Made by a program: the position numbers and the translations under genes. Shown one piece after another: positions 3,983-38,189 of a stretch of 64,000 nucleotides of DNA. Position 1 is the stretch's first letter. Each line of letters opens with the position of its first letter. The notes beneath the pieces are model-generated. The model made no database searches. It was not told the origin of the DNA and saw only the letters and a list, made by a program, of their open reading frames with translations. This DNA comes from Ilex aquifolium (Eukaryota > Streptophyta > Magnoliopsida > Aquifoliales > Aquifoliaceae): assembly GCA_951799425.1 (NCBI GenBank), contig OX637394.1:16797001-16861000 (forward strand), written 5' to 3'.

Positions 3983-4029
<47 letters not shown>

Positions 4030-7058: not shown

Positions 7059-7064
7059 TATAAA
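7059..7064 (+). promoter_or_regulatory. TATA box of BBE-like gene 1
   Basis: TATAAA inside AGTACTATAAAGTAGC, 46 bases upstream of the start codon. In the duplicated gene the same site reads AGTACTAAAGTAGC, a 2-bp deletion that removes the TATA core. Confidence 0.6.
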
Positions 7065-7109
7065 GTAGCTTCATTCTCTGAAGTTTTTGCACAAGAAAAG
7101 CCATTACCA

Positions 7110-11777: not shown

Positions 11778-11786
11778 CCTAATCTC
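11778..11786. other. Left target-site duplication of the large Mutator-like element
   Basis: CCTAATCTC directly before the left terminal repeat. The sequence right after the right terminal repeat is CCTAATTTC (35541-35549), 8 of 9 identical. Confidence 0.6.
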
Positions 11787-11830
11787 GGGGAAGTCTATGG
11801 TACCGTCTGGTCAAATAGCGGTACCATACC
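11787..11830 (+). repeat. Left terminal inverted repeat of the large MULE
   Basis: Begins GGGGAAGTCTATGGTACCG; pairs with the reverse complement of 35495-35540. It has an internal GGTACC repeated at 11799-11804 and 11820-11825. Confidence 0.65.
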
Positions 11831-11927
11831 CAAAAGTTGTTGGGATATTGTTAGAGCAAAAGACAATGGGAAAAAATAGAGCATAAATGGACAACCGAAT
11901 AAAATGATAACTTGTAAGTTGAAAGTA

Positions 11928-12290
11928 GTTTTTGATCGATCATAATGTTAAATGATCGATCGACATTTTCATATGAGTTACAACAAAATAGGTGAAGGTG
12001 GGGGACTTGCTGGGTAACAGTAGATATAACTACGATTGATCGGTATAATTAAGATGGATCACATTTATAAATATGTTCGATTTCAGAAGTTGTGTGATCA
12101 AAATAGTATTATGATCGATCATAATTTAACATGATCGATCGATATTTTAAAAAGAGTTACAACAAGATGGATGAAGGTGGGGGCTTCTTCGAGAATAATA
12201 GGTATAATTGAGGTGGATAAGTATAATTATGATCGATTAGTATAAGTAAGATCGATCATATTTATAAAAATGTTCGATTTCAGAATGAGT
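11928..12290. repeat. Subterminal repeat pair, about 165-180 bp units
   Basis: Two tandem diverged copies (about 11928-12085 and 12110-12285). Each contains ATGATCGATC palindromes, GAGTTACAACAA, GGTGAAGGTGGGG-like and TGTTCGATTTCAGAA segments in the same order. Confidence 0.75.
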
Positions 12291-12298
12291 GATTTTTT

Positions 12299-12929
12299 TG
12301 TGATTAAACAAGTAAATTGTGTTGGATAAGAGACTGAATGTTTTTTGATCGATCTAATAATGAGAGATCGATCAGAAAAAAAAATATGATAATTTACTTT
12401 CAAAAAAATTCGAAATATTGACACTTATTTTAAGGATTGTGAGCGATTCATAAAATTATGATTGATCAACAGAAATTGTTCAATAAAAATACCTTAAATT
12501 CGATTCAAATGTTTTGTGATCGATCAAGTAAATTGGAATGAATAAAATACTAAATATTTTGTGATTGATCTAATAATGGATGATCGATAAAAAAAAATGA
12601 TAATTTACTTGCAAAAAAATCAAAATATTAACCTTTATTTTAAGGATTGCAATCAATTCATAAAATTACGATTGATCAATAGAAATTGTTCAATAAAAAT
12701 ATCTTAAATTCGATTGAAAGTTTTGTGATCGAACAAGTAAATTGTGATGGATAAGAGACTGAATGTATTGTGATCGATCTAATAATGGTAGATCGATCAC
12801 AAAAAATATGATAATTTACTTCAAAAAAATTTCAAATATTAACCCTTATTTTAAGGATTGTAATCGATCCATAAAATTACGATTGATCAACCGAAATTGT
12901 TCAATAAAAATACTTTAAATTTGATTCAA
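12299..12929. repeat. Subterminal tandem array, three units of about 206-216 bp
   Basis: Units start at about 12299, 12515 and 12724. Each runs TGTGAT..., AAGTAAATTG, a GATCGATCTAATAATG palindrome block, ATGATAATTTACTT, TTTAAGGATTG, and ends with CAATAAAAATA-C-TTAAATT. Together with the preceding pair this forms about 1 kb of subterminal repeats, a usual position for MULE transposase-binding arrays. Confidence 0.8.
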
Positions 12930-13179
12930 ATAAAAAATATGAAATTACAAAAAATACCTCAAGTGTGGAGGGACATACTCATTAGCTGTTGGTTATTTTT
13001 GTCATTTTGCACCTTAAGTGCTATCGGCACCCATTGCAGGTGTATTTCCCCCGACATTACTGATTTCTCCCAAATCCTAAACCCCTTTGCTTGAACTAGT
13101 TAAGGAAAATACATCCCCCAAATCGATTGAAAAGCATATGGGTCCTCTGTACATTCAATCAAAGAAGTTGTAGATCGAC

Positions 13180-14334
13180 ATGGCCAGAGGAACAACCTGA
13201 GCGACAAAGAAGAGGAAGGCAGTGAATGGCATGAGTAAGCAATTTGTTATTGCCCAGAAGAAGAAGGATGGTGAAACAGGTAAGAGTTCGAAAGGTGACA
13301 CTGGTTTCGTGAATGAAGAAGCATAAACATTGTTTGAAACCTGTTTTTGTCATCGGCCATTATTAGTGAAACGAGGCGTTGCACTGGGTGAGTTAGTTAA
13401 TACCGAGTGTCCTAAGTTTTTTGGAGGTCGTAATTGGGAGAATATTTTTGATGTTAAGAAGGATGATAAAAACATATAACAACGTAGTTAGATTGTTTTA
13501 TGCAAATTTACATGACCTTGATAAGGTTGGGCACACTTTGAAGTCTGTAGTTAGGGGTAAAGAAATAAAAGTTTTCCCTGATTTTATTTCAAAAATGTTG
13601 AAAGTTCTCAGGCCTGTCATCACTGAGAATACCATTGTATTCCTTACAAAAGTAAAGAGGAAGTATCTAGCATGGAAACGGTTATTGAGACAATTTGTGA
13701 TGTCACTCTCGATTGGGTGGATGAGAACAGTAAAATATATCAGAAAGACCTTCGATTGCCTTATAGGATGTTAAACATAATAGTTGCTTGTAACATTGAT
13801 CCCAAAGGACATACAACTGAACTTGGATATGAAAGAGCTCAACTTCTATATGCGATTGGTAAATGGGCATGCATTGACCTTCCCCATTACATATTCCAGC
13901 TGATTATGAATGCCTATGAGTTGCATGATAGCAGGGGAAGTCTTCCATTTCCTATTTTGATTACAAATATTGTGAAGTTTTATGGGGTTGTGATTGAACC
14001 TGGCGAATCGTATACTGCTGCCATGGGTATGATAAACGAGGGTACTAATGAAAAAAAGTACTGGTCATGCTGGGCCTAGAAATTGTGCCAAGACTGTGTC
14101 ACAGGTGTCTTACTCCCAAACTGAGGGCATTACTGTGACAGAGGGCGAGGGTTCAAGTGCCAGTCCATTCAACATGAATACTATTAGAGAAAAGCTGTAG
14201 CAAATAGTAACTGGGCAAAATTGTTTGGCTACACAGTTGCATGCCATTTAGGAATGCATGAAGGGATCTTTGGAAAAGCTGGAGAGTAAGATTGATGGAC
14301 TTTACAAGGAATTTAAAGAGTATGGGAAGAAGTG
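13180..14334 (+). pseudogene. Broken 'putative plant transposon protein' domain gene
   Basis: Starts M-A-R-G-T-T and continues over several frames with in-frame stops. The recognisable core (about 13350-14050) has V-R-x-F-Y-A-N-L, V-R-G-K-x-I, W-D-V-like leader and R-A-Q-L-L-Y-A-I-G-K / L-P-F-P-I-L-I-T segments, the pattern of the plant-specific transposon-associated domain (Pfam 'putative plant transposon protein'). The C-terminal part (14080-14334) is charged with a possible short coiled coil. Molecular function of this domain is not established. The frame changes near 13480, 13660 and 14080 and stops near 13198 and 13325 show it is dead unless some are introns. It sits just inside the left subterminal repeats of the large MULE. 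Confidence 0.6.
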
Positions 14335-14873
14335 ATGTTGATGGGTTTTGTGTGGAAGAAATTCCTATGAATGGAAATGTGTATATGCCTGTAAATCTTT
14401 TGGGCCATATTAGATTTGGCGACCTTGTACCCTATAAAATGTAATCAATTCTGTTGAATAGAATCTTTTGGCAATGGTATGAAATATTTTGTTGTATGGT
14501 TGATTCGCACTTTTTTGTGATTTGAATTATATTATACACCCAAGTATAAGTGGTCGAATTGTAGTTTTCTCGGTTTAAGTCCAAGTATCGATCCCGCGAA
14601 GAGTTTGAGTAACTTAGAATTTAAAATAAAAACAGTAAAGTTGTTTAAAGCATTATAACAGTTGATAGCTTGTGATGTGAGCTTAGATTGATAACTAGTC
14701 TACTTTAAATTAAATGCGGAGATAAGCTTGTTAATGACAATAATATAAAAGATACCATTCAGTTTAGAGGATCTCATATGCTTTATATCGGTTAAATACT
14801 GGAAATGCTACCTTACAACAATTAACTTCCATGTTACTGGCAAGTCAACCGGTAGGTCTGATGTATATAAACC

Positions 14874-15420
14874 ATCACACAACAACTTCTTAGGTTAGCT
14901 GGTGATATTAGTTATAACACAACAACTTCTTAGGTTAGCTGGTTATATTCACGACAATTGATTAATCAAAGCACACCAAAAGGACAAACCATTCATGAAG
15001 AATACTTGAATTATTCAATTGTCTCGTGATAGTAAGTGCGTACATAATAAACCATAACACAACAACTTCTTAGGTTAGCTGGTTATAAATGTGCCAATTG
15101 ACTAATTCGAGTGAACCAGAATGATAAGCCATTCATGAGGAATACTTGAATTGCTTAATAGATCATATGTGATATATATATACCAGTTAAACATCCTCAG
15201 CGTTCCGGTGAAGGACAAGCCATACCGGTAGGAACACCGTGGTTGTTAGACTGACAATATAGTTATATATAGTAATTAAACAACCCTAATAACCTAGAAG
15301 GACAAGCCATTCATGAGGATCATTTAGGTTTTGTACCATGCATCAGTAGAACATCCTCATCGTTCCGGTGGAGGACAAGCCATACCGGTAGGAACACCGT
15401 GGTTGTTAGACTGGCAGGTT
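14874..15420. repeat. Interspersed short direct repeats inside the LTR-like block
   Basis: ACACAACAACTTCTTAGGTT occurs three times (about 14878, 14918, 15058). GGACAAGCCATTCATGAGGA-like sequence occurs repeatedly (about 14982, 15125, 15300). A 60-70-bp unit around GACAAGCCATACCGGTAGGA occurs twice (about 15190-15260 and 15352-15420). The order alternates rather than being a simple tandem array. Confidence 0.75.
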
Positions 15421-15908
15421 GATGATGCACCGATGACATAATTCCAGGCACATCACCGAAACTACGTACATCGCTGTATCATGCATGAAGCGTATAGTAC
15501 ATATATAGATAAATATATGAATAAAACATCAGCATTTCCATAATCTAACCGATAATATACATATGTTCACCCTTCACCAAAGGGTATAAACGACTACTCA
15601 CACCCCATCGCTACTGACAAGCAAGGAGTGCGGATATTCGTCATTACAACTGAAATAAAAACACAAACTCTAAAACTTCTTTCACAAGGAACACTTGAAA
15701 CACAACCACTTTTATTATTAATCAAAACAACAAAGTGGCGGTAGTTCAACTATCCGAATAGAAAGACTAAACATAAATGTAGAAATACAGAGTATCGGTG
15801 TAGAACAGACCGGCTTTGACTCTCTCTTTTTCTTTCTTTCTTTCTTTCTTTGGAGCTCTCTTTTGGCTCTTGGATGGCCGGCCTTATTGAAATGAAGAAG
15901 GGGAGGCA

Positions 15909-15917
15909 TATTTATAG
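15909..15917 (-). promoter_or_regulatory. Minus-strand TATA box
   Basis: TATTTATAG on plus, CTATAAATA on minus, a consensus plant TATA box. It is followed within about 100 bases by a purine-rich leader of repeated GAAA. Confidence 0.5.
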
Positions 15918-16324
15918 GCAAAGGAAGAAGCACGAGGTGGATGGATCAAGACAAACCACCAAGGTGGCAGTCCGGACCCCCCATCACCATCCGGATGGTG
16001 GTGCCTTGTAGTAGGGCCATGTGTTGCATAATGGAGCTTCCATGTGTCGCTTTCTGGAGCTTCCATGTGTCGCTTTACACTTTGGTCCTTCGTTGTTTCC
16101 AGTTTTGCAAGTTTACCTCATATTCTTCAGTATTTCTGTATTAAACCCTGAAATTCAAACATAAAGTATTTAAAACTTTCATTTACGCACAAACCCTAAT
16201 TCATAATGTTTAATTGTTTTATCTTACAAAGTTGATTACTTAATCATTTTAATTTACATACTAGTTAGGGTTAATCAATGGTGTTGTTAATAGTAGTTTT
16301 TACAAATTCATTATTTCCAGCAAC

Positions 16325-16490
16325 ATTACAGTAGTATCTTAACATCAAAATGTAGTAACCTTACATCAACATGTAGTAACCTTTCATCAAAATGTTATAA
16401 CCTCACCCCTAAAGATTACAACATTACCTCTCCATGTAGTAACCTTAAAAAAAATTGTTAGAATTGCTATAAGGTTACCTCATTCCACTG
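16325..16490. repeat. GTAACC-type short repeats
   Basis: Diverged short units such as ATGTAGTAACCTTACATCAA, ATGTTATAACCTCACCCCTA and AAGGTTACCTCATTCCACTG. The same phrases in the same order and orientation occur at 34400-34600 in the right subterminal region of the MULE. Confidence 0.75.
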
Positions 16491-17189
16491 ACAGAAGTAA
16501 TCCAACAAAGCAATGACCCTTGTATAGAGCAGTAGTTCCTCCCTCTCAGCAATCTTTGTTTATCCCCTAAAATTCCATATACTTCCCCAAACCAAACTAC
16601 CAACTGCACATAAGTGAAATAGTGCATAATATTTGTTAGTTCAACAACAAAGCAGCATACATTGGAAGAAGAAAACAACAACATATTGATCAGTTGGATA
16701 GACAAGCGTCTAGAGGAAAAACATGTAAATGAGATTAGTAATATAACTGTAGGTGAATCCCACCTGATTTGTGTTGGTAATGTAGCAATTGTAGAAGTTT
16801 GTCCAAAATGAGTTGCATACATGAAACTTGTCACTCCTGATTTGCATACATGAAAGTTGTCCAAAATGAGTTTCATACATGAAACTTGTCCAAAAGTGGG
16901 CGTTTTACCCAGTGTAATTTTTTTTTGAATTTTTTAGTCAATTTAATCACGTTGATTATGCAATTTTCCCAGCGATATGAACATGCTCACCTTGACAACC
17001 CTTAAAGTGGAGTGAAGAATTGTCCATGACCACTTGAGTGAAAGTCATGAAAGCCATCCTGAACAATCAATATATCGATAAAGAATGGTCAGTTAAATGG
17101 TGCATTGCTTGATAACTTATAAAGCAGCAAAAAAAAGGGGAACTTTGTGTTATAAAGATGTTATTGAACTCCACCCATGTTTACGTACA

Positions 17190-19498
17190 TGTGCGAAAGG
17201 GTCAAACGGTTCCTGAGTTGGCAATGGTTGGTGGTATCCACTTGCTTGTGAAAAGGGCATGTCCTCATATGGATCAGTAGTCTGGGTAGTCAACAAAGGA
17301 CATTTAAGAATATTATGTCCGGTTGCCTTGCACTTGCTATATATTCGGGACGTAAATGGATTATTATTTTGTGTACGGCCTGGATGTCCCTTTGTTGTAA
17401 CAATATGTGGATCAGCTACCCCAAACTTATTTAACTAAGTAGTCCTATTTTTGTGTTGTGTAGAGGTCTCCTCTGCTCTACCAAGGGATTCATGATTGGT
17501 CTTCATCTGAGAGGTTAATCCATGCAGTGTACTTCTTAGGTACTGAGTTGCTTTGTGACCATGCGAAACATAGTAACACATACGACTACACATGGCCATT
17601 AGTCCAGCATACCGTTTCGAAATGGTTAGAGTGTTACTTCTTGGCGGCATTATCCTCATTTCCTAAATCTCCCTTTGCGAAAATAGTCCAGCACTTCAGA
17701 ATGAGACTCAGAGGGAACCTTTTAATGTGCTCATATTTTAGTACTGTTATGATGTGGCAGCATGGAATACCAACAGATTCCATTTTCAAGCAGTTGCACT
17801 TCATACTATAATTTTGAGGAGAACATATAACATTCGATGTTGATTCTGGTTGCGTGTAGTGAAACAAGTAGTAACTCCAATGGATCCCGTTGTCAATTTT
17901 TTGAACTACAAAGAACATGGATTCGGACTTCAACTTATTGCGCACTTTGAAGAACAATTTTCTTGTATATATAGATGCTGCATGCTCTTCAAGACACCAC
18001 AATTGTGTGGTTGTCACCGGGGATGTGTGTTGGGTATCATGGTCATCATTTGCTTCATTCTCCCTGATCCTTGTCAAATCCCGGTCATATTGTTTCACAA
18101 CTCAAAGAGTCGGAGACGGGTCTTCAGAAAACGATTGAAGTATGAGTTCATACCCTCATATCGTTGTGTACTTTTTATGCCCGCAAAGAATTCACCTCTT
18201 AAATATGCTTTAGCCCACTTTGACCGTTTGGAATAAACTTCTGCTATCCAATTATTATTCTTCAATCCAAATGAATCCACCAACGTTTTCCATCGATCCT
18301 CAAATTTTTTCGGACTATAACGATCACACATACAATGTTTAAATTGTTGAACAAAATTTTCAGCACTAATATTTGACAATGCATTTCTTGTCAAATGCCA
18401 CTTGTATAATCTATGTGTTGCATTGGGGAAAACTTGATCTATTGCTCCTGCCATGGCCTTATCACCATTGATCACAACTGAAATAGACATCTTACCCTCC
18501 ATTGCATGAAGAAAAGTATGCAATACCCACATGTATGTCGTAACAGTCTCATCTAAGAGCAAGGCGCACCCAAAAATTGATGTTGCGTTATGGTTGTTCA
18601 CACCTGCAAGTATAACAAAAGGTTTCTTATAGGCATTAGTTCGGTATGTGGTATCAAATACCAAGACATCACCGAAGCATGCATAGTCAAGCCGTGAGGA
18701 TGAGTCTGCCCAGAACAAACAATTTAGTGAATTATCTTCATGGACACTGTAGTTGAAATAGAACATAGGGTCTGATTCTTTTTTTCCACTAAAGTAGTTT
18801 AACGCCCCCTTTGTGTCACTGTCTTGAAGTTGTGATCGACGTTCTGTTGCAACATCATTGTACAAATCTTTCATGGTAAATCCAACATTATGATAACCTC
18901 CTGCTTGTTGCACCAAAAAATCTCTTACTTGACTTGTATGTATGCCAACATTACACAATGCATTTGTTTGTTCTCTATCGGGACTCTTCACACGCCTATG
19001 CGATCGAAGGAATGGCACACCACATGGTGTAACCAATTGGTGATTATGTTCCTAGATGAATTCCTTTACAACCCATTGTTCAGACCCATTGTCATACTTG
19101 ACACGAAAAGTTGCGTTACATCCCACCCTTGTTAAGCCTCTTGGTTCTCGGATGCGGTCACTACGGTCAAGGTGTTTGGGTGATCGATAACCTTCTCTTA
19201 AACAAACCCACCGTCTTGACACTAGAATTTTATTTTTGTTACACTTCAAGTCATCATTCTGAACACTAAATCCCAAAAAAATTGCGTAATTGTTATAAAA
19301 ATCCCTAGACGCTTCATGTGTGGTGAACATCATTTGCATTACCTCACCCACTGTCAACCCATCGACTCTATTTTCCTCGACACCATGATATGAAATAGTT
19401 TGATCATTTTGCATATGATTCTCGTACTCATCATCTGTTACGACGATATTAAGATCTAGTAGTACACTTTTATCTTTGTCACCGATCGTACCTGCCAT
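17190..19498 (-). pseudogene. FAR1/MuDR-type MULE transposase, decayed
   Basis: Domains in order on the minus strand: an N-terminal acidic region, a FAR1-type DNA-binding zinc-finger domain (19340-19030, ending V-V-K-E-F-I...H-N-H), a MULE transposase core (about 18730-18350; D-V-L-V-F-D-T-T-Y, G-V-N-N-H, T-F-L-H-A-M, T-H-R-L-Y-K-W-H-L), and a SWIM zinc finger (M-K-C-N-C...P-C-C-H-I-I, about 17800). A C-terminal piece resembling a zinc knuckle follows near 17310. Two lesions are visible: an in-frame TAG at about 19050 between E-F-I and E-H-N-H, and a single-base frameshift near 18092 just after L-F-E-L. Everything else reads through, so inactivation looks recent. This is the enzyme class that would mobilise the surrounding element. 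It is divergently oriented to the ULP1-like gene at 19800. Confidence 0.85.
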
Positions 19499-19799
19499 TA
19501 CTCCACATATGGAATTACAAAAATAGGTGGAGTTATAAAATGTTTGCTAAATTTTGAGACAATTTTTACCCGATAATGCATAATCCATGTTCATTGACTC
19601 AATAAAATATTGCATATATTATAAGCAATATAGTACTTGAATAATTATGAAGGATAAACAAACTATTGCATATATATCACAATTATAGTACACATATTGT
19701 TACAAAATGTTTGATACCTGTTAAAACTGAATATAGTTGTATGGAGATTAATTGAATCCAATTCGCATCTTTCCTGCACTTCTATTGTTTTAAAGAACG

Positions 19800-22700
19800 T
19801 TGCATCTTCGCAAGGTGGCAATTCGGGTGTTACTGCGAAGAGGAAACGAAGGGTATGTACTATGAACACATATATTACATGGACCAACTCTGCATTATAA
19901 CATAACTTATATGTTTTGATATCTTTGTTTGATGCATTACATCTATATTCAACTACTAATGGGTACACATTGTTCGCCATCAAGTATCATAAAAGTTGTA
20001 AATGTGTTAACTGTTGATCAGAAACGTGCAGTGAAGGCCATGGGTTTAGAAGGGTTGACCAGCATAAAATGCACTATGGTGAGGAGGAGCTTATGCGAGT
20101 GGTTGGTGAAAAAAATTGATCCCGCAACGGCTGTGTTACCTGTCCATGGTAAATCAATTAAGTTCTCCTCTGAAGATGTTTATTACATAATGAGTTTGTC
20201 AAACACTGGCATTGAGTTGGACACTGCAGATTCTTCAGACCAAACAGAGGAACTTAAAAAATTAATTTTTAATGGACAGAGGGAGCTGTCATTGACTACT
20301 TTGGTTGGTAAACTAAAAGAATTGAAGCACGATTCATTTACTTTTAGGCGCTTATTTGCTCTATTCATAATAGGCCGGCTTCTTTCCCCAACCATGAAAA
20401 TGACAATTAATAGTTTGTACGCCAAGCCCCTTGTGGATGTAAATGCATTATCTTCTATAAACTGGAGCAAATTTGTTTATGATGGTATTATTGAAGGCAT
20501 ACGAAATTTCAAGGAAAAATCAAGGCGTAATATTTGTGGTTGTATCATTGTGCTACATGTATTGCGTTATTTACTTATTTGCTAATTCATTGTACTGCTT
20601 TCTTATTCATACCAGTTGTATTTATTACTTGAACGTTATCCATTTGCAGATTTTCTATTTTGAGCGCGTGACACTAGCTGGGGAATCATACATTCCATTT
20701 CTATCACGACTATTCACTCGGATGGCAGTTTGGGGGGATAAAGAAATAGGCCAGCGCATGACCACACTGAAAAAATTGGGTGGATACAAAAAAAAAGAGT
20801 AACTTATGAAGGATATTATACTCTTTAATTCTAGTTTTATTGTTAATTATTTCATAATGGAAGATATTGTCTACATGACGTGGTATTAACTAATATTTGG
20901 ATTATCGTAGATAATGTTTACAGTTGAAGAGTCACTCAATATTCCTGACCCAGATGAGGGACGCAATGAGAGGACACCATTTGAACATTCAGTAAATGTT
21001 CCTGTCACTGATGTGAGGAGTAAAGTGAGGACAACAGGCGTTTCTTACGCTCAGAACATGTAGGTTACCTTATGTAGGATATATATGGAGGTAGAACAAT
21101 ACATATCATTATTATTATTATTTTCCATGAGTGACACTTCAATGTGTTATGTAGGATTTTGACAAGAGATTGTCTACAGTTGAGGTTGCATTGTCTACAT
21201 TTCGATCGGACCATGAAGCTTTGTCTGCCAAGTTTACATTTGAAGTAAATGAAATTAAAAAGATTCTGGAAACTCTTTCTGAAAAGGTGTGTAAAAATGG
21301 GAGAGAACCACCTACGAAGGAGTATGTCCATGTGAGTACACTATATTGCTATGTAATCCTTTACCATAGTACATGTGTGTGTTACTTTGTATATTTTATG
21401 TGTTGTAAAATGTGAACCAGGAATTATTGGATGACAATGAAATCGAGGTCCGGGCTGACAGCACCAATGAGGTTATTATACACACAAGTTTAAACCAATT
21501 AAATTTTTTACTGCACATGGACCTAAAATGACAGACACTCCACTTTTAGGTTGTTGATGAGTTGGTTCCCCATATTACTGATGTTAGTGATGAAGTAGAA
21601 AATGCAATATGGAACTACATTTTTCATGAGGGACTTGATGCAGAGTATGTCACAATTACTACCATTACAGGGTGTTTATTATTTGCAGTTCTTATGCAAA
21701 TCATACCTTACATGTTGTAGTTTGACAGTGAGACGATTGTTCAGTTTGAAAAAATTCATGCGACAAGAATGACAATGAAGTCATTGGGACCCAGACTTTG
21801 GTTGCCGAGCGAGGTGAGTTATATAATTTTCCCATATTTGTATACCCAATTTTGAATTAACTGGCGACGGATTAAATGTATGCAATTCTAAATATGTATG
21901 ATTCTGTACACAGTTAATCAATGTCGCTGCATGTATTATGCCACCCACAGATATGGGGAACAACGACACACACAAGGCCATGTGGTATATTCCGACTTGG
22001 TTTGCGGTAATACTCCACAATCAAATTTTGGTTTTATGTGATTTTCTTGATTTACGGCCTCATATTGTGTTTTAATGTTCAATATGAACTTACGTGTTTA
22101 TAATTTCACAAATCCTTAAATTGTAGCAAATAATCATTCACTATACATCTGAGGGGAAAATTGATGTTCAAATGCAACGAAAACTCATGCGATTGTGTGG
22201 TCGATACATCCAGGATATCAACATGTGTGACAAGGTATGACTGGATAAAAACTGACAATAGATTCTACATTACAAAGCATAATCTCTCAAATTATGTACG
22301 TCACCATAGTGTACTGACTGCAATTGCCTTATGTAGATATATGACCCCATTAACGACGACAAAAAACATTGGTACTTATGCGTTGTGGACATACAACAGA
22401 AAGAAGTCCTCCTCCTAGATACTCTTCCAAGTCGAACACTGAAGCATACACGACGTAAGCAAGTGGATGATGTGGTATGTGTGATCTAATTTGGAATGCA
22501 AAATATGATCCATGCAACTCATTCGAGGGTGGATTTGCCAAGTGTAACTTATTGCATTGTATGAATGAGTAGGTTGCGTCATTTGGTGAAATTATTTGCC
22601 AGATAAACAAACATTTTGAAAGAATAATCAATACATGGCCCGTGATTGAACCAAGTTGGACACCCAAACAGGTAAATGAATACGATTGTGGAATTCACGT

Positions 22701-22946
22701 TGTCGATATGATCCATCAACCTTGTCTGGGCCAAACTATGAGTAAGGTGTACTATAAATAATGTTTATTTTTCTATTATACTCTCTAATGTTTTGCACAT
22801 GTTATAACACTTAAAATTGTATGCAGGCATTGTCGTCAAAGGTTAGAAAGGATATTGCATTAAAGCTGGTTACCCATCCACACAATACAAAGCGAGATGA
22901 AATAATTGACAAGTCATTGAAGCTCCTGGACATAAACTTTTCATAG
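19800..22946 (+). CDS. ULP1-type cysteine protease-like gene A (MULE-borne)
   Basis: Multi-exon gene; exon limits are inferred from reading frame and GT-AG sites (a first short exon ends near 19850 before GTATGT; the main N-terminal exon is about 19990-20560; small exons follow; the last ends with TAG at 22944-22946). The N-terminal part is a plant-specific domain found with transposon-linked ULPs (S-I-K-C-T-M-V-R-R-S-L-C-E-W-L-V, then F-A-L-F-I-I-G-R-L-L-S-P-T). The C-terminal part is a C48 (ULP1/SENP) peptidase: His at 22367 (K-K-H-W-Y-L), Asp 17 residues later (L-L-L-D, 22418), Gln at 22669 and Cys at 22687 (Q-V-N-E-Y-D-C-G). This matches the yeast Ulp1 spacing of His/Asp and Gln/Cys. ULP1 enzymes cleave SUMO or related conjugates. 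MULE-borne ULP genes are a known class (KAONASHI type). Its role in transposition is unknown. Exact splicing is unverified and hidden lesions are possible. Confidence 0.7.
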
Positions 22947-24402: not shown

Positions 24403-24407
24403 GCAAC

Positions 24408-26299: not shown

Positions 26300-29200
26300 G
26301 CAACAACTTGGTTTCTCAATCTGTTGTCATGGTGGGTGACCAATTGAACAGCTAGCTTCTTGCGCATATCGTTCGATTCATCTTGAGACCAATAATATTG
26401 TTAGTGTATGAAATATTATAATAGGTGAAGTTAGTGCATCGTAGATGTGCATCTGTTGTATTACCTTTACAATCCAGGCAGGACCTAACAAAGGTTCCTC
26501 CATGAATTTAATAACGAACATACCACAGTCGTGTCCATCATCTTGTCTTGGAGCCTATCCGGCTTCTATCAAAGGGAATCTGTGGAGAATTGGCTTGTAC
26601 AAACCATCAATACATTGAAGTAACAAATCAAGATATGCAACCACCTTCTTCACGTCGATGAGTCGACGGTCGCTGTCCTTTAATGGCATGGAGTCAAGCA
26701 ATACAACTTCACGCTCAAGTACATCGATCATGCATAAGTACCAATGTTGATTATTGTCGTTCATTGGAATAAATATCTGCATTAATAAGTCAATGACTTC
26801 ATTAATAAATGAAAATGGTAGATGCAATTCAAGCAAAATATATACATGTATATGAAAGTAAGATAGAATATGAAGCACCTTGTCACAATCTTCAAATTTA
26901 TGAATGTAATCAGACAGGTTAAGAAATGAATCATTTGTGCACGGTACACCTGCATTGGACGAGAGTCTTGCAATTGTCTATTGCTGAATATATTCACAAA
27001 TATGGTGCAAACTTAGAAATTTATGCTTGCAACATTTAAAACCATGATAATGCCATTGACAAGGGTTGGATGCATTACCAAATAGTATGTGGGAAGAAAG
27101 CATCTAATCTTCACATTAAATGGATTCGTCTTCCTCCCTTGAATAGTAATGTATGCACCAAAATTTATTATCTTTACAACCAATATACGAATACACACAG
27201 CAATATGCATTAAATACATTAATAGTTGTGTATGCAAAAAAAAAAAAAAATGCAATTACAACATGACCCGTTACCTTAAAAAACTCGTCTGTTGAAGTGC
27301 TGTGATCCCTAAAAATGCGCTTTCTACTTAAATCAATATTCACTTTATCCTTCACATCTTTGTGCTCGGCCTTCATCTGCGATCGACGATTCTATTATAA
27401 TAACTCTTGTCACTACTGTAAATGAAATTTTTTCAAATTTTAATGAGTGTGAATAATTAACAGCATACCTTGGCTACTTCATATGGTGACTTCAACCAGT
27501 TACTTATGGCATCGATGGACGCTGCCAACTTTTCTTCTTTCTTCATTTTCTTATTCAATCGACGATTCTATACATGAAATAAGCAAAGTCGTTACAAATT
27601 GACATGTTTCATACAACACGAAACTTTAAATTAAAAAATATAACGTATATCATACCTTCGGCAGTACATAGGGTGACTTCAACCATTTACTTGGTTTCCT
27701 TTTAGAACATCTACGAAGTATCTTTGCCACTCCTAATTTCTGTGTATAGGAGTATGATGCCGATTGAGGATAATCAATATCTGTGGGTTGAAACAATGCA
27801 AGTGCATTTGAACCAAGTTTGTTAAAATCCTTCGCCTGTATACTTTCAGCCAACTTCACAGCCGAAAACGGTGTTTAAATATGATTATGATTTTCAGATC
27901 CATGCATGGCCCACTCGTTCACTCCAGTACTCTTGCCATTACCATCCTTCACCTCAGTCTTATTAGGGTCAACTTGTGGTATGCCGTCATAATTGAAACT
28001 ATCTCCTAAAGAGGTTTCCATCATTTTTTTCAGAGTGGAAATCAATGAACTGAATTCTACAGACATTTCAGTTAAGTTCGACTGCATTTTGCACACAACA
28101 GCCTCGACATTACAAAGTTTTTATTCAATGGCCTAAAATTATTATTTACATATCATTTCACACATCAATAATAAACTTTGTAATGTCGTAAACTATCAAC
28201 AACACTTACTGTAAATCTTTCATCGCTATTGATTTGAGGTGCCTGAATTGTCGGTATTGCTTTCACAGGTGCGTGTGAAAAACCTTGATTGGTATCTGAT
28301 AATGGAACCTATAATGAACAATTCATATCATTAAATAGTATTTATGAAAATGTCATTCCATAACTGAAAAAATATGATACCCGCATATATAGTAGCCAGC
28401 CTGACTTCTTTAAAAGGATCATTCGGTCATTAATTTCTTGATCACCCCATGCGGCAATTCGGGGAAGGGTTCGACCCATGTATGGAACATCCACAACTCC
28501 ATATGGTGTCACCCGCTCAAGGAAAAACAACTTCACAAAAATATTAGATCTGTCAAACTTTTGGTTGATGACCAATTATGCTATTAATAATAGAATGCAA
28601 ATGTGTAGTAAACAATTAATTACCATTAGGACAAGTATGCACCCACTGATATTGTGCTGATTATTCAGCTTATACTTCTGCACTCCTTTAATAACACCAT
28701 CATACACAAGCTTCGCCCAATTCTTCTTGCCTAAACCTCCAACATCTATTATTGAGTGGATGCAAGATGTGGTAACTGTGGTCTTCATTGTGGGGAGTAA
28801 TAAATAACCAAGTACAAATAAAGAAAATATAAGCTTGAACTCAATAGAATCATCTTTCATTTCAAATAATCTACCCTCCAGAACTTTCAAAGGAATAACC
28901 TTGTGATGTAGATCGTAATAGCTCTGATACCAAATTGATGTAAATCGTAATACCTCTGATACCAAATTGATGTAGATCGTAGTAAGGAAGAATTAGGGAT
29001 GAGAAGGGAAGAAGAAGGGGATGATTCTGCAATTTTTGAAACTTCTGGGAGGAAGATTCTTCAACTTCTGATGGTGGTTTTGCGACTTCTGAAACTTTCT
29101 GGGGTGTTTCTATAATTTCTGGAACAGCTAGGATGTTGTTTCGGTAATTTTCTGAATCTGCTGGAGAGGTTTCTAATAAAATTGTGAACTTTGGGTCAAA

Positions 29201-29496
29201 AACTTAACCCACCAGGCTACTGCTACAACGACGAAATCTAGTAATTTTTTTTTATTTTTATACTAGACAGTGAGATTTTTGTTATGATGAACAGTGAATG
29301 TGAACAGTGCGCATGAAAACAACACATGAACAGTGCGCACGAAATAACGCATGAACAATGCGCGTGAACAGTGATTTCGAAGAACACTTTTTTTTTTTTC
29401 GATGAACAGTGTTGCTGAGATTTTTTGTGAATTGTACGAATCGAAGTTGGGCTCTTATACCAAATTGATGTAAATTGTAATATCTCTGCACCAAAT

Positions 29497-29851
29497 TGAT
29501 GTACATCGTAGTAAGGAAGAATTAGGGATGAGAAGGGAAGAAGAAGGAGATGAGAAAAGAAGAAGAAGGGGATGAGAACAGAGAGAGAATTTGAGGAAGA
29601 ATGATTCAATATCAATAATCAATAATAATCAAAATTCTCCTACAACAAATATGTATTCCCTATATATATAGGAGTTCATAAATCCTATATATATAAGGAG
29701 ATCACAAACCCTAAAATAAATAAATAATCAAAATGACAACTAAACCCTTAAAAGGTAAAAGAAATTACTTAAAAGATAAATACTAAAAGTATCTAAATAA
29801 CTATCATAATTAATCTATAATATTTGTCCAATTCCTACACGATCCCCATCA
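29497..29851 (-). repeat. Full-length LTR inside the gag-only element
   Basis: 355 bp, ends TGATGGGGATCG...TACATCA on minus, nearly the same as 32621-32953. The unknown ORF at 29815-30636 runs into it and stops just inside. Confidence 0.75.
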
Positions 29852-30636
29852 TTCTCATCCGGTTGAAAAAAACTCTCATCTGGAGAGTCTTCAAAGCAGA
29901 AGTACCCTAAGAAAGCAACATGAAGATGGTAGAATGCCTCATCTAGAATGAAAGAACCATCAACACTTTTCCATCGACCAGAATAAATGCAAGAATCTCC
30001 ATCTGTAGCAATGTAAATCTGGTCCCGTAGCACATCATCTATTTGGCCTGAAATATGCGATGGAAGTGGAAAGATAAGAACTAGAGCTTGTGCTGAAAAA
30101 GAAACAATTTCACCTGTAGAAACACTAGATAACAAAATAGGAGGTTCTGGAGTACCTCGATTAAGTTGCATGTCCTCCAAATAAAAATCTGGACTAATAC
30201 TAACATTCAATGAAAAATTAAGCAAATAAGCATTAGATTCAAATTCAAAAATAAGAAAACAATTCCCATCAGACTTGAACAACAAGCATTCAGTGGGACA
30301 AGACTTCAACAATCTTAGATTGACAATAGGCAGAGGAACAAAGTCAACAATCTTAGATTGGGAAGAATCTGTAACAAAGTTATAATGACTTGGACAAGTA
30401 GACACGTAATAGTCACTAGTAGATTCTACAATAAATGATTCGATTGGCTTAATATCTTGCATAGGTGTAGACTCAACAGATTTTTTCACAATTTCCAAGA
30501 CCAATGATGGTTGAAGAATTGACACAAGCAAAGACACACACACTTTCTTTTGATATGAACTCTTGTGGGTACAAAGGAGGAGGACTCTGATCTGATGAAA
30601 TTGAATGAGGGAGTTGGAAGTCAATATGAGTAACAT
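29815..30636 (-). CDS. Unrecognised ORF of the gag-only LTR element
   Basis: A 273-codon open frame overlapping the end of the gag frame in a different register and finishing inside the downstream LTR. It is rich in Ser, Leu and acidic residues with stretches such as S-I-S-P-D-F-Y-L-E-D and Q-P-D-E-N-D-G-D. I see no protease, polymerase or integrase motif. It may be the tail of a gag-pol polyprotein replaced by other sequence, or a captured fragment. The true start is unclear, because the first methionines fall inside the gag region. Confidence 0.4.
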   Translation of the reverse strand: MLLILTSNSLIQFHQIRVLLLCTHKSSYQKKVCVSLLVSILQPSLVLEIVKKSVESTPMQDIKPIESFIVESTSDYYVSTCPSHYNFVTDSSQSKIVDFVPLPIVNLRLLKSCPTECLLFKSDGNCFLIFEFESNAYLLNFSLNVSISPDFYLEDMQLNRGTPEPPILLSSVSTGEIVSFSAQALVLIFPLPSHISGQIDDVLRDQIYIATDGDSCIYSGRWKSVDGSFILDEAFYHLHVAFLGYFCFEDSPDESFFQPDENDGDRVGIGQIL

Positions 30637-31423
30637 TTTTCTTTTTATATGATACTGGCATATCTAAATCCTTTGTTACATTCGGATTAGGAAAGCATGC
30701 AGAAACAACATGGATATCGTTCAAGTAATCATGATACTCATATGTGGTGGAATTAAAATTGGAAGGTATCATTTCACGCTGTTTAGCAGACTGTGATATA
30801 GAACCCATCAAGCTATAGTTGGATTTCTTATGAAACCTCTCAACCTTTAGAGTATATTGATAGGCTGCAACTAAAGTGTTAAAAGTATATTGCTTGACCT
30901 CCCTACTAATTTTTTGTCTCAATCCAAGAATAAACTGATCAATTGTCCAAGGTTCTTCAACAATGTCACACAAGTACATGAGATAATCGAACTGGACAAA
31001 GTAATCAGAGACACTAGAAGAATGTTGTCTAAGATTGAGTCATTGGTCATAAACTTGATCCATGTAGGAAGTAGGCAAACACTTCTCTTTCAATTTATAT
31101 CTCATTTCAACCCAAGTAATAAGTGATTCTCCAAAGGGGTCTAAGCTTCTTTGGATTGTTTGCCAATACTGCTTGGCAGAACCCTCCAACATTAATTTAG
31201 CAAACTGGACGCAATGGGAATCCGACATGTCATGCCAATCAAAATATTCTTCTAAATTAGCTAACCAATCCAAGAGTTTAAAAGGATCTAAAGTCCCACT
31301 AAATATAGAAGGATCTTTGACTCGTTTGGTCATATAGGTTGACTCCATGTAAACATCCCTACACTTCCTATGATGATGACCTCGACAAGAAACTCTTGAA
31401 ACATGTGCATTAGAGGAACTCAT
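30473..31423 (-). pseudogene. Gag of the non-autonomous LTR element
   Basis: Begins at the methionine at 31421-31423. It carries a plant Retrotrans_gag core: F-K-L-L-D-W-L-A-N-L-E-E-Y-F-D-W, then L-x-G-S-A-K-Q-Y-W and L-K-E-K-C-L-P-T-S-Y. A stop at about 31040 interrupts it, after which the same frame continues (Y-F-V-Q-F-D-Y-L, F-I-L-G-L-R) to about 30473. No zinc-knuckle is evident. It would encode the particle protein of the element. Confidence 0.7.
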
Positions 31424-32078
31424 GAGTGACTCTTGAGAGATGAGAATGGTATAAGAACAAATTCAAGAATGCAATTGATAATTTCAAGTAAGTTTAAATA
31501 GAAGAAAATGTGTTTTGGACCCTTTACAAATTCTCTAATTTCCCAATGTATAAAAATATTAGTCTCAAATTCTATGGGAGTATGCATACCATAATCAAGA
31601 GAAAATTCTGAAACTTTTTGGGGATGATTCTGTAATTTTTGAAACTTTTGGAATGATACTTTTGTAATTTTTTGGAATTTCTGGGACTGATTCTACAATT
31701 TTTTGGATTTGTTGGGGATGTTTCTGCAATTCTAGAGCTTCTGAATGGTATTTCTTCAATTTGTTGAAACTTATGGGGGTGATTCTACAAGTTTCTGGTT
31801 TTACTGGGGATGTTTCTACAATTTTAGATTTCTTGCAGTAGATCTTCTTCCCCACATGAAGCTATTGTTCCCAAACAAAACCCTTCCTGATCTGATCGTC
31901 TTCTTCGCGACAATACTGCTTCAAAAAAATAATTTTTTTTTTTACTCGACAGTGAACAGTGCGCGATGAACAATTTTTTTTTTTTTTTTTTTTGTGATTT
32001 GTATGATACCAAATTGATGTAGATCGTAATAGCTCTAATACCAAATTGATGTAAATCGTAATAGCTCTGATACCAAAT

Positions 32079-32357
32079 TAATGTAGATCGTAGTAAAACA
32101 GAATTAGGGATGAGAAGGGAAGAAGAAGGAGATGAGAAAAAAAGAAGAAGAGGATGAGAACAGAGAGAGAATTTGAGGAAGAAGGATTCAATATCAATAA
32201 TCAATAATAATCAAAAGTCTCCTACAACAAATATGTATCCCCTATATATATAGGAGTTCACAAACCCTATATATATAAGGAGATCACAAACCCTAAAATA
32301 AATAAATAATCAAAATGACAACTAAACCCTTAAAAGGTAAAAGAAATTACTTAAAAG
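32079..32357 (-). repeat. Truncated internal LTR copy
   Basis: Matches the LTR up to the AAGAAATTACTTAAAAG segment, then switches to leader sequence at about 32358. The 5' (U3-like) part is missing. It shows a tandem LTR-leader duplication. Confidence 0.7.
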
Positions 32358-32540
32358 TTATTGTTCCCCACGTGAAGCTATTGTTCCCAAACAAAACCCT
32401 TCCTGATCTGATCGTCTTCTTCACGGCAATACTGCTTCAAAAATATATATATATTTTTTTACTCGACAGTGAACAGTGTCGCCGATGAATAGTGTGCGAT
32501 GAACAATATTTTTTTTTTGTGATTGTACGAATCGAAGTTG

Positions 32541-32620
32541 GGCTCTGATACCAAATTGATGTAGATCGTAATAGCTCTTATACCAAATTGATGTAAATCG
32601 TAATAGCTCTGATACCAAAT
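32541..32620 (-). repeat. Tandem repeats of LTR end plus primer-binding site
   Basis: On the minus strand CATCAATTTGGTATCAGAGC is repeated every 32-33 bp, each time followed by TATTACGAT(C/T)TA and another LTR end. Equivalent repeats are at 32003-32078, 29455-29496 and 28904-28970. Confidence 0.8.
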
Positions 32621-32953
32621 TGATGTAGATCGTAGTAAAGCAGAATTAGGGATGAGAAGGGAAGAAAAAAGAGATGAGAATAGAGAGAGAATTTGAGGAA
32701 GAAGGATTCAATATCAATAATCAATAATAATCAAAAGTCTCCTACAACAAATATGTATCCCCTATATATATAGGAGTTCACAAATCCTATATATATAAGG
32801 AGATCACAAACTCTAAAATAAATAAATAATCAAAATGACAACTAAACCTTTAAAAGGTAAAAGAAATTACTTAAAAGATAAATACTAAAAGTATCTAAAT
32901 AACTATCATAATTAATCTATAATATTTATCCAATTCCTACACGATCTCCATCA
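32621..32953 (-). repeat. Outer 5' LTR of the gag-only element
   Basis: 333 bp, starts (minus) TGATGGAGATCGTGTAGG and ends TACGATCTACATCA. Its outer end abuts the CCTTG target duplication. Confidence 0.8.
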
Positions 32954-33957
32954 CCTTGAGTCCCTTAAACAACGATTCACATACCTTAATTATTCTATCA
33001 AGGGCCCCGCTCCTCTCCATTTCTGCCCCTTCATTTCTTAGTCCCATTATCAACTCAACATCTATAGGAGGGAACTTCAACGATTTTTCATACACATTGA
33101 GTGCACAGCCTTTCGGATCAAAGCACTCCACTAACCATGCACACAAATATCTCTTTATTTGTTTACATTTAAGGTTTAACACTCCCCCCAAAACCAAATC
33201 TATGTATTTTTCTTTCTCAACATCAGTCATCTTACGCCATTGCACAACGCAATCTTTCATTGCCTGAAATTACTTCCATTACACTTGATAAACATGACTT
33301 TGCCGAATTACAAATACTAACACGTTAAATATACATACCTCATTTTTTGTTTTCGCTTCTTTGCCACCTTCTATTCTCTTTAAATTGTCTTTGCTGCATA
33401 TGGACAAATGTTAAAGATTTAACCTACATCTTTAACAATCTCGAATGATATGTTAAAGTTTGAACTTATATCTTTAACATTCATAGATCGATCGTACTAC
33501 ATCCAGGTCGATCATTAGGCCAAATATCTTGTGACTCACCAGTAATAAATCCAGACGGTTGATGGCCGAGGTACTTTATTTGCATCCCTTTTACATTCGA
33601 TGTACATCTTCTTTACCCTGAGTATAAACTCTCTTCTATTACGACTTACATATGTCCCAATGTTAGACAACATAAAAAAAGGATATCGGTACTTACATGG
33701 ATATTGATTCAATCGAATGCACATACACAATTATAATGTATCAAAATACCATCAAACAAGACTAACAAGAACAATGGAGTGCTCTGGCATCGCTTACAAT
33801 CGTCGCCCTTTGTTTGGAAGGAGTTGGTGGAGTAAAGGGTAGTGACGAAGGGAAGAGTGCTTTTGGCGGGATCATCTGGGCGAGATACATTCAAAGTGGG
33901 AGGGAAAAAATTATTTAATTATTTCGTTTACATGATGATGGGGTCCATATGTCCCTC

Positions 33958-34235
33958 TATCAAATCCAATAGTATCGATCAGCATTACGTATGATCGATC
34001 GTAAATAATTAAGATCGATCGTAAATAATTAAGATCGAACATAATATTCATTATTTTGATCTCATTAATGGAAATGTATATCCTTTTATGATCGATCAGT
34101 AGTATGTATGATCGATCCCACTGCCCAATTACCTATAGAGGAAAGGCGCTACCCCCCAGTAAGGTTGTAACATAAGTACAAACAAAAAAACAAGATCGAT
34201 CTTGTGAATGTACGATCGATCTTAATTATCAACTT
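33958..34235. repeat. GATCGATC-rich subterminal unit, copy 1
   Basis: Repeated ATGATCGATCG and AAGATCGATCGTAA motifs, a CCCACTGCCCAATTACC...CCCCCCAGTAAGGTTGTAACATAA block, then GATCGATCTTGTGAATGTACGATCGATC. It is repeated almost as a whole at 35085-35345. Confidence 0.8.
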
Positions 34236-35060
34236 GTTATTACGTCACCCCTAAAGGTTACCTCTTTCTCACTGACAGGAGTAATTTTACCTTTATGCAT
34301 TATAACTTTCCCTCAACATTCAATAAACTTACCTTTATTTCAATGAGTAACTTTACCTCAGTAGGTGTTAACCTTATTGTTACGAGTGGTAATCCTACCT
34401 CTAACGATACTAACCTAACGTCAACATGTACTAACCTATCATCAATATGTAGCAACCTTACATCAACATGTTGTAACATTACAACAAAATGTTATAACCT
34501 CAACCCTAAAGATTACAACATTACCTCTCCATGTAGTAACCTGACAACAATTTGTTATAACCTCACCCCTAAAGGTTACCTTTTCCCACTGACAGGAGTA
34601 ATTTTACCTTTATGCATTCTAAGTGTTCCTTTTTAGTCGATAAACTTACCTTTCAATGGGTAACTTAACTACAAATTGGTGGTAATCTTATTATTAAAAT
34701 TGTAATCCTGCCTATAAAAATAGTAACCTTACCTCTCCATGTTATAACCTCACCGTTAAAGGTTACCTCTTTGCCACCGACAACCATATTTTAACCTTTA
34801 TGCATTGTAACTTTTCGTCAATAGTCGATAAACTTACCTTTCAATGGGTAACTTTGCCTAAATATGTGATAACCTTTTTTTTATTATTGTCATCTTCCCT
34901 ATAGAGATTGTAATTTTATCACTCAACATGTAGTAACCTTTCGTCAATATGTTATAACCTCACCCATAACGATTACCTTTTTTGCCACTAACAGGAGTAA
35001 TTCCACCAATTTGTAATAACTTTCTCTCTATTATAGATAAACTTACCAATTAATGGATAA
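34236..35060. repeat. Degenerate GTAACC/GTTATAACCTC array
   Basis: Short units such as ATGTTATAACCTCACCCCTA, AGGTTACCTTTTCCCACTGA and CAGGAGTAATTTTACC recur with about 250-bp higher periodicity (near 34262, 34562, 34750, 34950). One frame is open (34295-34636) only because of the repeat. Confidence 0.8.
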
Positions 35061-35084
35061 CTTTTATTGTTGATATACATTAAA

Positions 35085-35345
35085 TATTAAGATCGATCTT
35101 ATATAATTTCGATCGAACACACATCTAAGATCGATCGTAACTGATTAAGATCGATCATAATATTCATTGTTTTGATCTCAATAATGCAACTGTATATCCT
35201 TTTAGGATCAATCAGTATTATGTATGATCGATCCCAATGCCCAATTCCATCCAGAGGCAAGACGCTCCCCCCAGTACGGTTGTAACATAACCTTAAACAA
35301 AAAAACTAGATCGATCTTGTGAGTGTACGATCGATCTTAATTATG
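35085..35345. repeat. GATCGATC-rich subterminal unit, copy 2
   Basis: Near-copy of 33958-34235 about 150 bp inside the right terminal repeat of the MULE. Confidence 0.8.
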
Positions 35346-35494
35346 CTTTTCATGACCGGTTGAGCAAGTTATATGTTTATAGATACAAAAGTGTAAATAA
35401 ATTAAATCAACAGATGCTGATAAAAAAAAAATTAAATCAACAGATCAATGGTTGTGCACTAATGAGCAGAACATCAATGGCTCCCATCAGTATT

Positions 35495-35540
35495 TCGGTA
35501 CCGCACCGAATTTTGACCAGGCGGTACCATAGCCTTCCCC
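35495..35540 (-). repeat. Right terminal inverted repeat of the large MULE
   Basis: The reverse complement starts GGGGAAGGCTATGGTACCG, matching 11787. It is followed on plus by CCTAATTTC (35541-35549), the right target-site duplicate. Confidence 0.65.
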
Positions 35541-35549
35541 CCTAATTTC

Positions 35550-36480: not shown

Positions 36481-36486
36481 CTTTTC

Positions 36487-38126: not shown

Positions 38127-38189
38127 CACTGGCCCTTTGTTTTCAGAACCTTGGAAACTGCAGGTATTTGTAGTGTTGCAAGGCAAATT

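Follow-up and report, generated by a model that had tools for sequence, protein, structure and literature searches.

Does the 23.75-kb stretch at positions 11787-35540 of the window (the whole 64,000-nucleotide piece of Ilex aquifolium DNA analyzed here, from contig OX637394.1, called C4 below) represent one very large Mutator-like element (MULE), or do its two matching ends belong to different elements? An earlier note on this DNA had proposed a single MULE bounded by terminal inverted repeats (TIRs) and a 9-bp target-site duplication (TSD). Our analysis bears this out: the window copy, E0, is a dead member of a giant MULE family and inserted as a unit with a 9-bp duplication, and complete copies of this family are ~22.6 kb long and carry four genes. 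The genes encode a FAR1-type transposase, a Transposase_32 protein (T32), and two Ulp1-type proteins (ULP-A and ULP-B), and copies of the motif GATCGATC lie in pairs near both ends. Insertion as a unit, together with the mechanism proposed below, is in our judgment very probably the best overall explanation of the locus.

The ends recur as pairs with their own target-site duplications

The left end of E0 at 11787 and the reverse complement of its right end at 35540 are identical at 25 of 27 and at 46 of 60 bases. The left TIR occupies 27 bp at 11787-11813 (plus strand), and the right TIR, placed by comparison of the ends and by a genome search with the right end, lies at 35514-35540 (minus strand); the family consensus ends alike over ~40 bp. 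The flanking 9-mers, CCTAATCTC at 11778-11786 and CCTAATTTC at 35541-35549, differ by a single base.

The host genome is ~800 Mb; its large contigs are numbered up to C20, in line with x = 20 as the most frequent count in Aquifoliaceae (28 of 44 species; PMC11435385). It was searched using the 200-bp left and right ends as queries, with 40 candidates scored for each. At least 55 rows matched the left query and at least 42 the right one, and among the left-end matches listed, many begin at query base 1. Twenty-nine left/right pairs, window copy included, could be assembled on the same contig in matching orientation (the pairs other than E0 are numbered E1-E28), while some left and right matches remained without a partner. 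Perfect 9-bp flank duplications without any shift were found in 12 of the 29 pairs and in none of 812 mismatched pairings. Flanks agreeing at 8 or more positions without shift accompany 15 pairs, with the window copy as an 8/9 case, and again none of the mismatched pairings reaches 8; when a 1-bp shift is allowed, the figures are 18/29 and 3/812. The TIRs themselves are short, with 16-25 of the first 27 bases paired (1-bp shift allowed) in 28 of the 29 pairs and just 10 in E27, where the left end was extrapolated.

A paralogous empty site lies at C4:16868879-16869046, ~36 kb beyond the right end of the element and 7.9 kb past the right edge of the window. Bases 1-170 of a query made from the joined flanks (joint at 150) match this site at 81%. 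The alignment runs through 248 bp of left flank at 78%, a single CCTAATTTC, and 20 further bases of right flank before diverging; the right-flank part including the 9-mer amounts to 29 bp at 93%. The outer right flank is a repeat, matched by at least 38 other rows. The earlier note had suggested looking for such a site in related accessions or species; the one found, with a single CCTAATTTC joining both flanks, is a paralogue in the same genome. An empty site was also sought within the window and not found, the paralogous block there stopping at 11021/55015, before the insertion point. That the two ends recur as pairs with perfect duplications, and that a paralogous site holds a single CCTAATTTC, indicates that the window contains one inserted MULE.

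Several observations count against this conclusion. Seven of the 29 pairs (E9, E14, E15, E16, E20, E21, E27) have flanks agreeing at 6/9 or fewer even with a 1-bp shift. In addition, the flanks of E8 (C10:12249248-12271710) are separated by 78 bp in a paralogue of 91-94% identity, L088 (C10:12396600-12397010), and by 79-93 bp at six further loci, although E8 itself has a perfect 9-bp duplication; because of these intervening 78 bp, the E8 locus is not a clean empty site. The alternative that the ends of two elements were paired by chance, or that one MULE sits within another, the true ends then lying near 16.3 or 23 kb, gains some color from the alike 21-bp arrays at 16.3 and 34.4 kb. It is nevertheless hardly credible and we regard the two-element chimera as refuted, since full copies are collinear, share the same two ends and carry their own TSDs, since the empty site exists, and since the array at 16.3 kb lies inside the element wherever that region is present (E2, E3, E4, E5, E7, E8).

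Complete copies and the decay of the window copy

Twenty of the 29 pairs measure 19.9-25.6 kb, and five of those 22.42-22.65 kb. Two copies, E18 (C3:47591343-47613988) and E22 (C13:27882441-27905086), are 22,646 bp each and 99.04% identical end to end; they are flanked by different perfect duplications, TAAAAAAAA and AAACTTCTT, contain no nested elements, and both hold a complete 798-amino-acid FAR1-MULE frame and a 384-amino-acid open T32 frame. The order in E18 is left TIR, GATCGATC zone, T32 (1871-3022, plus strand, 384 amino acids), transposase (4015-6408, minus strand, 798 amino acids from stop to stop), ULP-A (about 10152-13121, plus strand), ULP-B (about 19197-15421, minus strand), right GATCGATC zone, and right TIR, the ULP exons being taken from open frames. 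T32 and transposase are mutually convergent, as are ULP-A and ULP-B. Among the transposase matches listed, 7 of 23 family places can be aligned along residues 1-798 and contain no stop.

Other family members vary in size and arrangement. E21 is a 4.5-kb derivative that has lost most of its interior, keeps 18 GATCGATC motifs, and shows no clear TSD. On C1, two members stand head to head with their left ends 8 bp apart (C1:4750710 and C1:4750719), the second having a stop-free transposase frame at C1:4754733. Two end pairs, 40.9 kb apart with a perfect TSD (C2:36195688-36236539) and 76.8 kb apart with a TSD of 8/9 at a 1-bp shift (C7:27411423-27488215), are presumably family copies swollen by nested insertions.

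E0 is collinear with six full-size copies (E1, E2, E4, E5, E7, E8) save for insertions and deletions on either side, E1 being without the transposase and E4 without the start of ULP-A. The earlier count of two nested long terminal repeat (LTR) insertions of almost 6 kb has to be raised to three, private to E0 and totaling 7.7 kb, all of which have TG..CA ends and are flanked by 5-bp duplications. The first (14501-16277, 1777 bp, duplication ATGGT) is solo-LTR-like and absent in E2, E3, E4, E5, E7, and E8, where its junction was judged (E1 is without the region); the other two were judged in all six full-size copies. The second spans 24408-26299 (1892 bp, duplication GCAAC), and the third, 28904-32953 (4050 bp, duplication CCTTG), resembles an LTR retrotransposon in its repeated LTR-like blocks and has a weak match to gag of 20 bits (cut-off 24.1). 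At the junction 19797/19798, E0 is without sequence that its relatives have (~1.04-1.06 kb more in E2 and E4, ~3.4 kb in E18), and further deletions lie near 27207 and at 33194. The MULE-derived share of E0 is ~16.0 kb, and about one third of the stretch consists of later insertions. Compared with the complete E18 frame, its transposase has in-frame stops at two points, a 1-bp gap, and a 1-bp insertion. With these stops and frameshifts and a split ULP-B, E0 is a dead, non-autonomous copy.

Tandem repeat analysis also located arrays at 12296-12931 (period ~211 bp, three copies) and 34344-34981 (21-63-bp units), in agreement with the subterminal arrays noticed earlier. The 21-bp array at 16331-16501, just past the 3' end of the transposase gene, resembles the array at 34344-34981 and is internal rather than an element end.

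The four genes

Domain searches bear out the gene content that had been read from the letters and specify it as a FAR1/MULE/SWIM transposase, a Transposase_32 gene, and two Ulp1-type genes. The transposase gene lies at 17153-19495 (minus strand), its frame being compared with that of E18. The MULE domain (PF10551) scores E = 2.6e-20 in the window and 2.6e-26 over the full profile in E18, where FAR1 reaches 82.9 bits, MULE 92.4, and SWIM 18 (under the cut-off of 19.6; 22 in E0). A CCHC motif was seen by eye at the C-terminus. Candidate DDE motifs were picked out by eye in the translation. The two best protein matches are unnamed ENA sequences (60% over 95% and 88% over 63%); many of the other matches bear the name FAR1-RELATED SEQUENCE, in Rhododendron, Vitis, Camellia, and Citrus. 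In a tree of the query and 36 of 120 listed relatives, the transposase groups with asterid sequences. A comparison with the PDB gave no match at E <= 0.1.

The Transposase_32 gene (PF20167; 13183-14334, plus strand) is interrupted by frameshifts and stops in E0 and open in E18 and E22, scoring 111.5 bits in E18. Its protein matches come from Ilex paraguariensis only (7 hits, 40-87%), and an AlphaFold model built from 7 relatives was unusable, with a mean predicted local distance difference test (pLDDT) score of 39 and a predicted template modeling (pTM) score of 0.28. T32 was also considered as a relative of the DUF1985 parts described below and rejected, the hhalign probabilities being 0.5% and 0.2%. 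In the accessible part of a study of sunflower, similarity to PF20167 is described in a frame of an Athila retrotransposon (PMC11728184), so a Transposase_32-type accessory protein, like Ulp1, may be common to unrelated transposon classes. Fusions of FAR1-MULE or MULE with Transposase_32 occur in three Rhododendron gene models, and a fusion of Peptidase_C48 with FAR1-MULE in one Citrus model, indicating that parts of this architecture extend beyond the genus.

ULP-A (19885-22818, plus strand) combines a DUF1985-like N-terminal part, a coiled-coil-like middle, and an Ulp1-type C-terminal part. ULP-B (24359-33269, minus strand) consists of half an HMG box, a DUF1985-like part, and an Ulp1 catalytic part, and in E0 it is split by two of the nested insertions and has suffered deletions. 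The Peptidase_C48 (Ulp1) domain reaches 51.8 bits in ULP-B of E18 and 35.5 in ULP-A (cut-off 20.7). A PMD match in ULP-A (23.8 bits) is below the cut-off. The HMG-box-like exon preceding ULP-B (33194-33269, minus strand, partly deleted in E0) matches HMG_box_2 at 24.4 bits (cut-off 22.4) and probably forms one transcript with it. When ULP-B was aligned to yeast Ulp1 (1EUV, E = 3e-4), His, Asp, Gln, and Cys were matched, residues that we take to be catalytic; the same four are present by eye in ULP-A. ULP-A and ULP-B are paralogues in opposite orientation.

Paired GATCGATC sites in the subterminal zones

E0 holds 10 exact GATCGATC motifs in its left subterminal zone (11934-12798), with four adjacent pairs 19-20 bp apart, and 12 in its right zone (33993-35336), with five adjacent pairs 20 bp apart; one more motif lies at 33486. 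Eleven copies contain 15-31 motifs each, almost all of them within the outer 2 kb on the left and 3.3 kb on the right. Counts far exceed Markov expectation: 74 against 0.8 in E0, E1, E2, and E4, and 112 against 0.2 in E7, E8, E18, and E22. In seven copies, the start-to-start spacing of adjacent motifs is 20 bp in 49 cases, 19 bp in 10, and 38 bp in 11, cases that depend on one another through tandem repeats and ancestry. Each zone contains 1-8 pairs at 19-21 bp where uniform placement gives 0.05-0.35, although in 5 of 14 zones, all of them left, a few simulations equaled the observed pair count. Genome-wide, GATCGATC-N11-13-GATCGATC yields 3281 pairs, compared with 2 for the reversed pattern; 13 of the 50 distinct pair sites listed fall in E16 or by its head-to-head neighbor, for which no right end was located. 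Known VANC21 or VANC6 motifs were tried as the repeated site and rejected (0-3 and 0-2 8-mers per copy, 11 copies).

The paired arrangement extends to a more distant relative. At L089 (C10:14650500-14652800), upstream of a sister T32, 28 GATCGATC motifs occur in 2.3 kb, and 10 of the 27 adjacent spacings are 21 bp, largely inside ~179-bp tandem repeats. This locus hardly aligns otherwise to E18 or E0, and its transposase is ~64% identical. The family end motif was not matched in this sister copy.

What binds these pairs? One answer is that they serve the transposase, through its FAR1 domain, or T32 in assembling the two far ends and play no part in anti-silencing, with the ULPs otherwise employed, for example in desumoylation that stabilizes the transposase. 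We consider this the main rival, short of an even chance. The pairs are located near both ends, 18 motifs survive in the 4.5-kb E21 despite its lost interior (though its TSD is unclear), and pairs are kept in the sister copy, where the surrounding DNA is scarcely alignable. Conversely, the arrays extend ~1.5 kb into the element from the left end and 3 kb from the right end, in changing tandem repeats, which resembles the description of VANC targets in the accessible text of PMC5735166.

Sister families and linkage of the genes

The transposase search returned 57 rows at 56 places (the best 56 of 2077 candidates scored), the T32 search 109 rows (best 107 of 5394), and a search using the DUF1985 part of ULP-B 150 rows (best 150 of 714). 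The linkage count covers 56 transposase, 105 T32, and 150 DUF1985 places; in four cases where a T32 match was split, its second row was omitted. Among the transposase matches listed, 22 places in addition to E0 are 77-100% identical, and 33 sister places, many of them stop-free, are 62-66% identical. T32 lies within 16 kb of 47 of the 56 listed transposase places, compared with a random mean of 0.27; the nearest T32 is always convergent with the transposase and on the same side in 44 of 47. A DUF1985 match, ULP-B- or ULP-A-like, lies within 45 kb of 51 of the 56 (random mean 1.0), and both partners are near 44. At listed family places, an ULP-B match has the expected place and orientation in 21 of 23, 16 of them 12.6-15.5 kb away (all distances start-to-start).

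The same partners accompany the sister transposases, with a same-orientation ULP-B match at 29 of the 33 listed sister places and T32 near 25. Here the spacing between transposase and ULP-B is 15.2-20.0 kb in 17 cases, 31.5-33.8 kb in eight (for example, C4:9476963 to 9508489 and C8:4352123 to 4385176), and 23.8-35.7 kb in four others. The longer spacings imply that sister elements probably exceed 35 kb, to which nested insertions may contribute part. Separately, three equally scoring ULP-B DUF1985 places on C14 (22028369, 22050107, and 22071847) are spaced 21.74 kb apart, which suggests tandem duplication within a sister element.

Selection between copies

The ratio of nonsynonymous to synonymous divergence (dN/dS) between copies was calculated by the Nei-Gojobori method; owing to shared ancestry, the pairs are non-independent. 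The transposase value comes from 36 pairs of 9 copies (E1 has none, and E21 was dropped); for the other genes and the controls, E3 and E21 were dropped, as was any pair whose dS was <= 0.01 or whose overlap was short. The median dN/dS is 0.53 for the transposase, 0.60 for T32, 0.54 for the N-terminal part of ULP-A, and 0.64, 0.76, and 0.64 for three parts of ULP-B. Five presumed noncoding controls treated in the same way gave 0.89-1.16. Because dead copies evolve freely, these ratios understate the constraint on live ones.

These values bear on whether the ULP and T32 genes are captured host passengers, as in Pack-MULEs, with no function for the element. MULEs are well known to capture gene fragments, among them Ulp1, according to the accessible parts of PMC2528002 and PMC13317346, many copies here are broken, and the coding dN/dS is only moderately under 1. 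The E18 and E22 transposases even show dN (0.007) above dS (0.002), on too few changes to interpret. Passenger status is nonetheless unlikely in our view. The accessory genes lie at 0.54-0.76, below all controls, the same genes accompany transposases only 62-66% identical, the three Rhododendron models fuse FAR1-MULE with Transposase_32, and the catalytic residues are retained.

A possible mechanism

The transposase family and the TSDs point to movement of the element by cut and paste, which the FAR1-type transposase would carry out. ULP-A and/or ULP-B might recognize the paired GATCGATC sites that recur throughout the noncoding subterminal zones; their binding could lift silencing there, the Ulp1 domain stripping SUMO from chromatin or silencing factors, while T32 would act as a conserved helper alongside them. 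The precedent is found in VANDAL elements of Arabidopsis: according to the available text of PMC5735166, VANC proteins include a DUF1985 domain, the target of VANC21 is a 9-bp motif located in noncoding tandem repeats, and methylation is lost on expression of VANC; in that of PMC13317346, KIU genes add an Ulp1 domain. By this analogy, ULP-A and ULP-B may act like VANC/KIU proteins, in GATCGATC recognition and in anti-silencing by desumoylation, a proposal that we favor for the accessory genes but rate below an even chance.

A number of results weigh against it. The DUF1985 match in ULP-A (24.6 bits) is under the Pfam cut-off of 35.1, and ULP-B has no DUF1985 match, its assignment depending on 42% identity to the DUF1985 part of ULP-A. 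A search with the joined exons of ULP-B, covering 7994 candidates, gave no protein match at E <= 1e-3. Motifs of the VANC21 and VANC6 types are rare in the copies, and the transposase is of FAR1 rather than VANDAL type. Finally, the 8.6-kb copy E3 is without ULP genes yet shows a 9/9 duplication once its boundary is shifted by hand, so action of the ULPs in cis is not required.

More broadly, and with more hesitation, we suggest that a giant FAR1-type MULE lineage, ranging from 22.6 kb to probably above 35 kb, could possess an anti-silencing and desumoylation module of its own. This module would consist of a DUF1985/Ulp1 gene and its inverted paralogue, an HMG box being present in one of them, plus T32, and would act on arrays of paired GATCGATC palindromes about two helical turns apart, the site being kept across families while the surrounding repeats are rewritten.

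Relation to known MULEs

The family has the MULE domain, TSDs of 9 bp, the typical size within the 8-11 bp of MULEs, and TIRs, albeit short, and its transposase has FAR1 at the N-terminus and SWIM/CCHC at the C-terminus, as in the Jittery group (PMC6446971). The dicot/monocot sub-group of Jittery is tabulated there with one open reading frame, whereas the holly family has four conserved genes. The closest relatives in print, as far as the accessible text of PMC2528002 describes them, are the grapevine elements Jitvine-1 (11.9 kb) and Jitvine-2 (14.4 kb), which likewise belong to the Jittery-like transposase group, are multi-copy, and have some complete frames. The same text places ULP sequence downstream of the transposase in some Jittery-like families and cites melon for the same. 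The Jitvines are shorter, and that description mentions neither a second ULP nor a Transposase_32 partner, arrays of paired GATCGATC, or a TSD. The longest MULEs that we met in the literature, Mutavine-1 (17.7 kb) and Mutavine-18 (16.2 kb) of grapevine, are MuDR-like and under 22.6 kb (PMC2528002, same text).

Likeness to the Arabidopsis VANDAL/KIU (Kaonashi) elements, non-TIR MULEs, is anatomical. Judging from the accessible parts of PMC5735166, PMC10398659, and PMC13317346, these have accessory genes with DUF1985, to which the ULP-A match is below the cut-off, and, in KIU, with Ulp1; they also share the repetition of short motifs within noncoding tandem repeats that evolve fast. The holly family differs in its short TIRs, FAR1-type transposase (compared by type), two Ulp1-type genes, and other motif, the GATCGATC pairs; given the rarity of known VANC motifs and the different transposase, we do not class it as VANDAL. 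Two further elements are known to us from partial texts. CitMule of clementine shares the FAR1 + MULE + SWIM transposase, 9-bp TSDs, and terminal similarity that is short and degenerate (17 to 65 bp) but is 6.9 kb with a single predicted transcript (PMC4334395). Hvu_Abermu of barley is a large MULE with extra genes, one oppositely oriented, and a 9-bp TSD, but it is 8.2 kb, has three frames, stands nearer MuDR, and is described in the accessible text with no mention of Ulp1 (PMC9168764).

The earlier suggestion of an undescribed, large autonomous MULE type therefore holds in part. The size stands, as do family copies with complete transposase frames; E0 itself is broken, and since ULP sequence in Jittery-like MULEs was known before, the family is better seen as a new, very large variant than as an undescribed type. 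A MULE of such composition or size was absent from the literature searched, whose coverage is thin on subscription papers. As far as that literature goes, what is new is that a length of 22.6 kb without nested elements, four genes, among them two paralogues of Ulp1 type and a conserved Transposase_32 partner, and arrays of paired GATCGATC occur together, along with the still larger gene spacing of the sisters.

Surroundings of the element

Positions 7035-8756, 41870-43630, and 36365-38132 (reverse) hold tandem berberine-bridge-enzyme-like genes (FAD_binding_4 + BBE) and an inverted, ~77% similar stretch, and E0 lies between members of this cluster. A probable gypsy-type retrotransposon with two Transposase_28 matches occupies 55016-61000, directly after the end of the paralogous block at 55015. 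Positions 61891-62958 hold a 356-amino-acid open frame of about nineteen 54-bp repeats that are about 90-96% alike.

Implications

The two 99% identical copies at different sites raise the size at which a MULE seems to have moved as a unit to 22.6 kb, compared with the 17.7 kb found in the accessible text of PMC2528002. If the broader proposal of an anti-silencing module is true, holly would possess, outside VANDAL, an anti-silencing system whose target code stays the same. Why Ulp1 genes recur in transposons is regarded as an open question. Since the GATCGATC pair site can be assayed with any of the four proteins, the near-identical complete copies, the sister families, and this sharply defined site make the roles of the Ulp1-type and Transposase_32 proteins directly testable.

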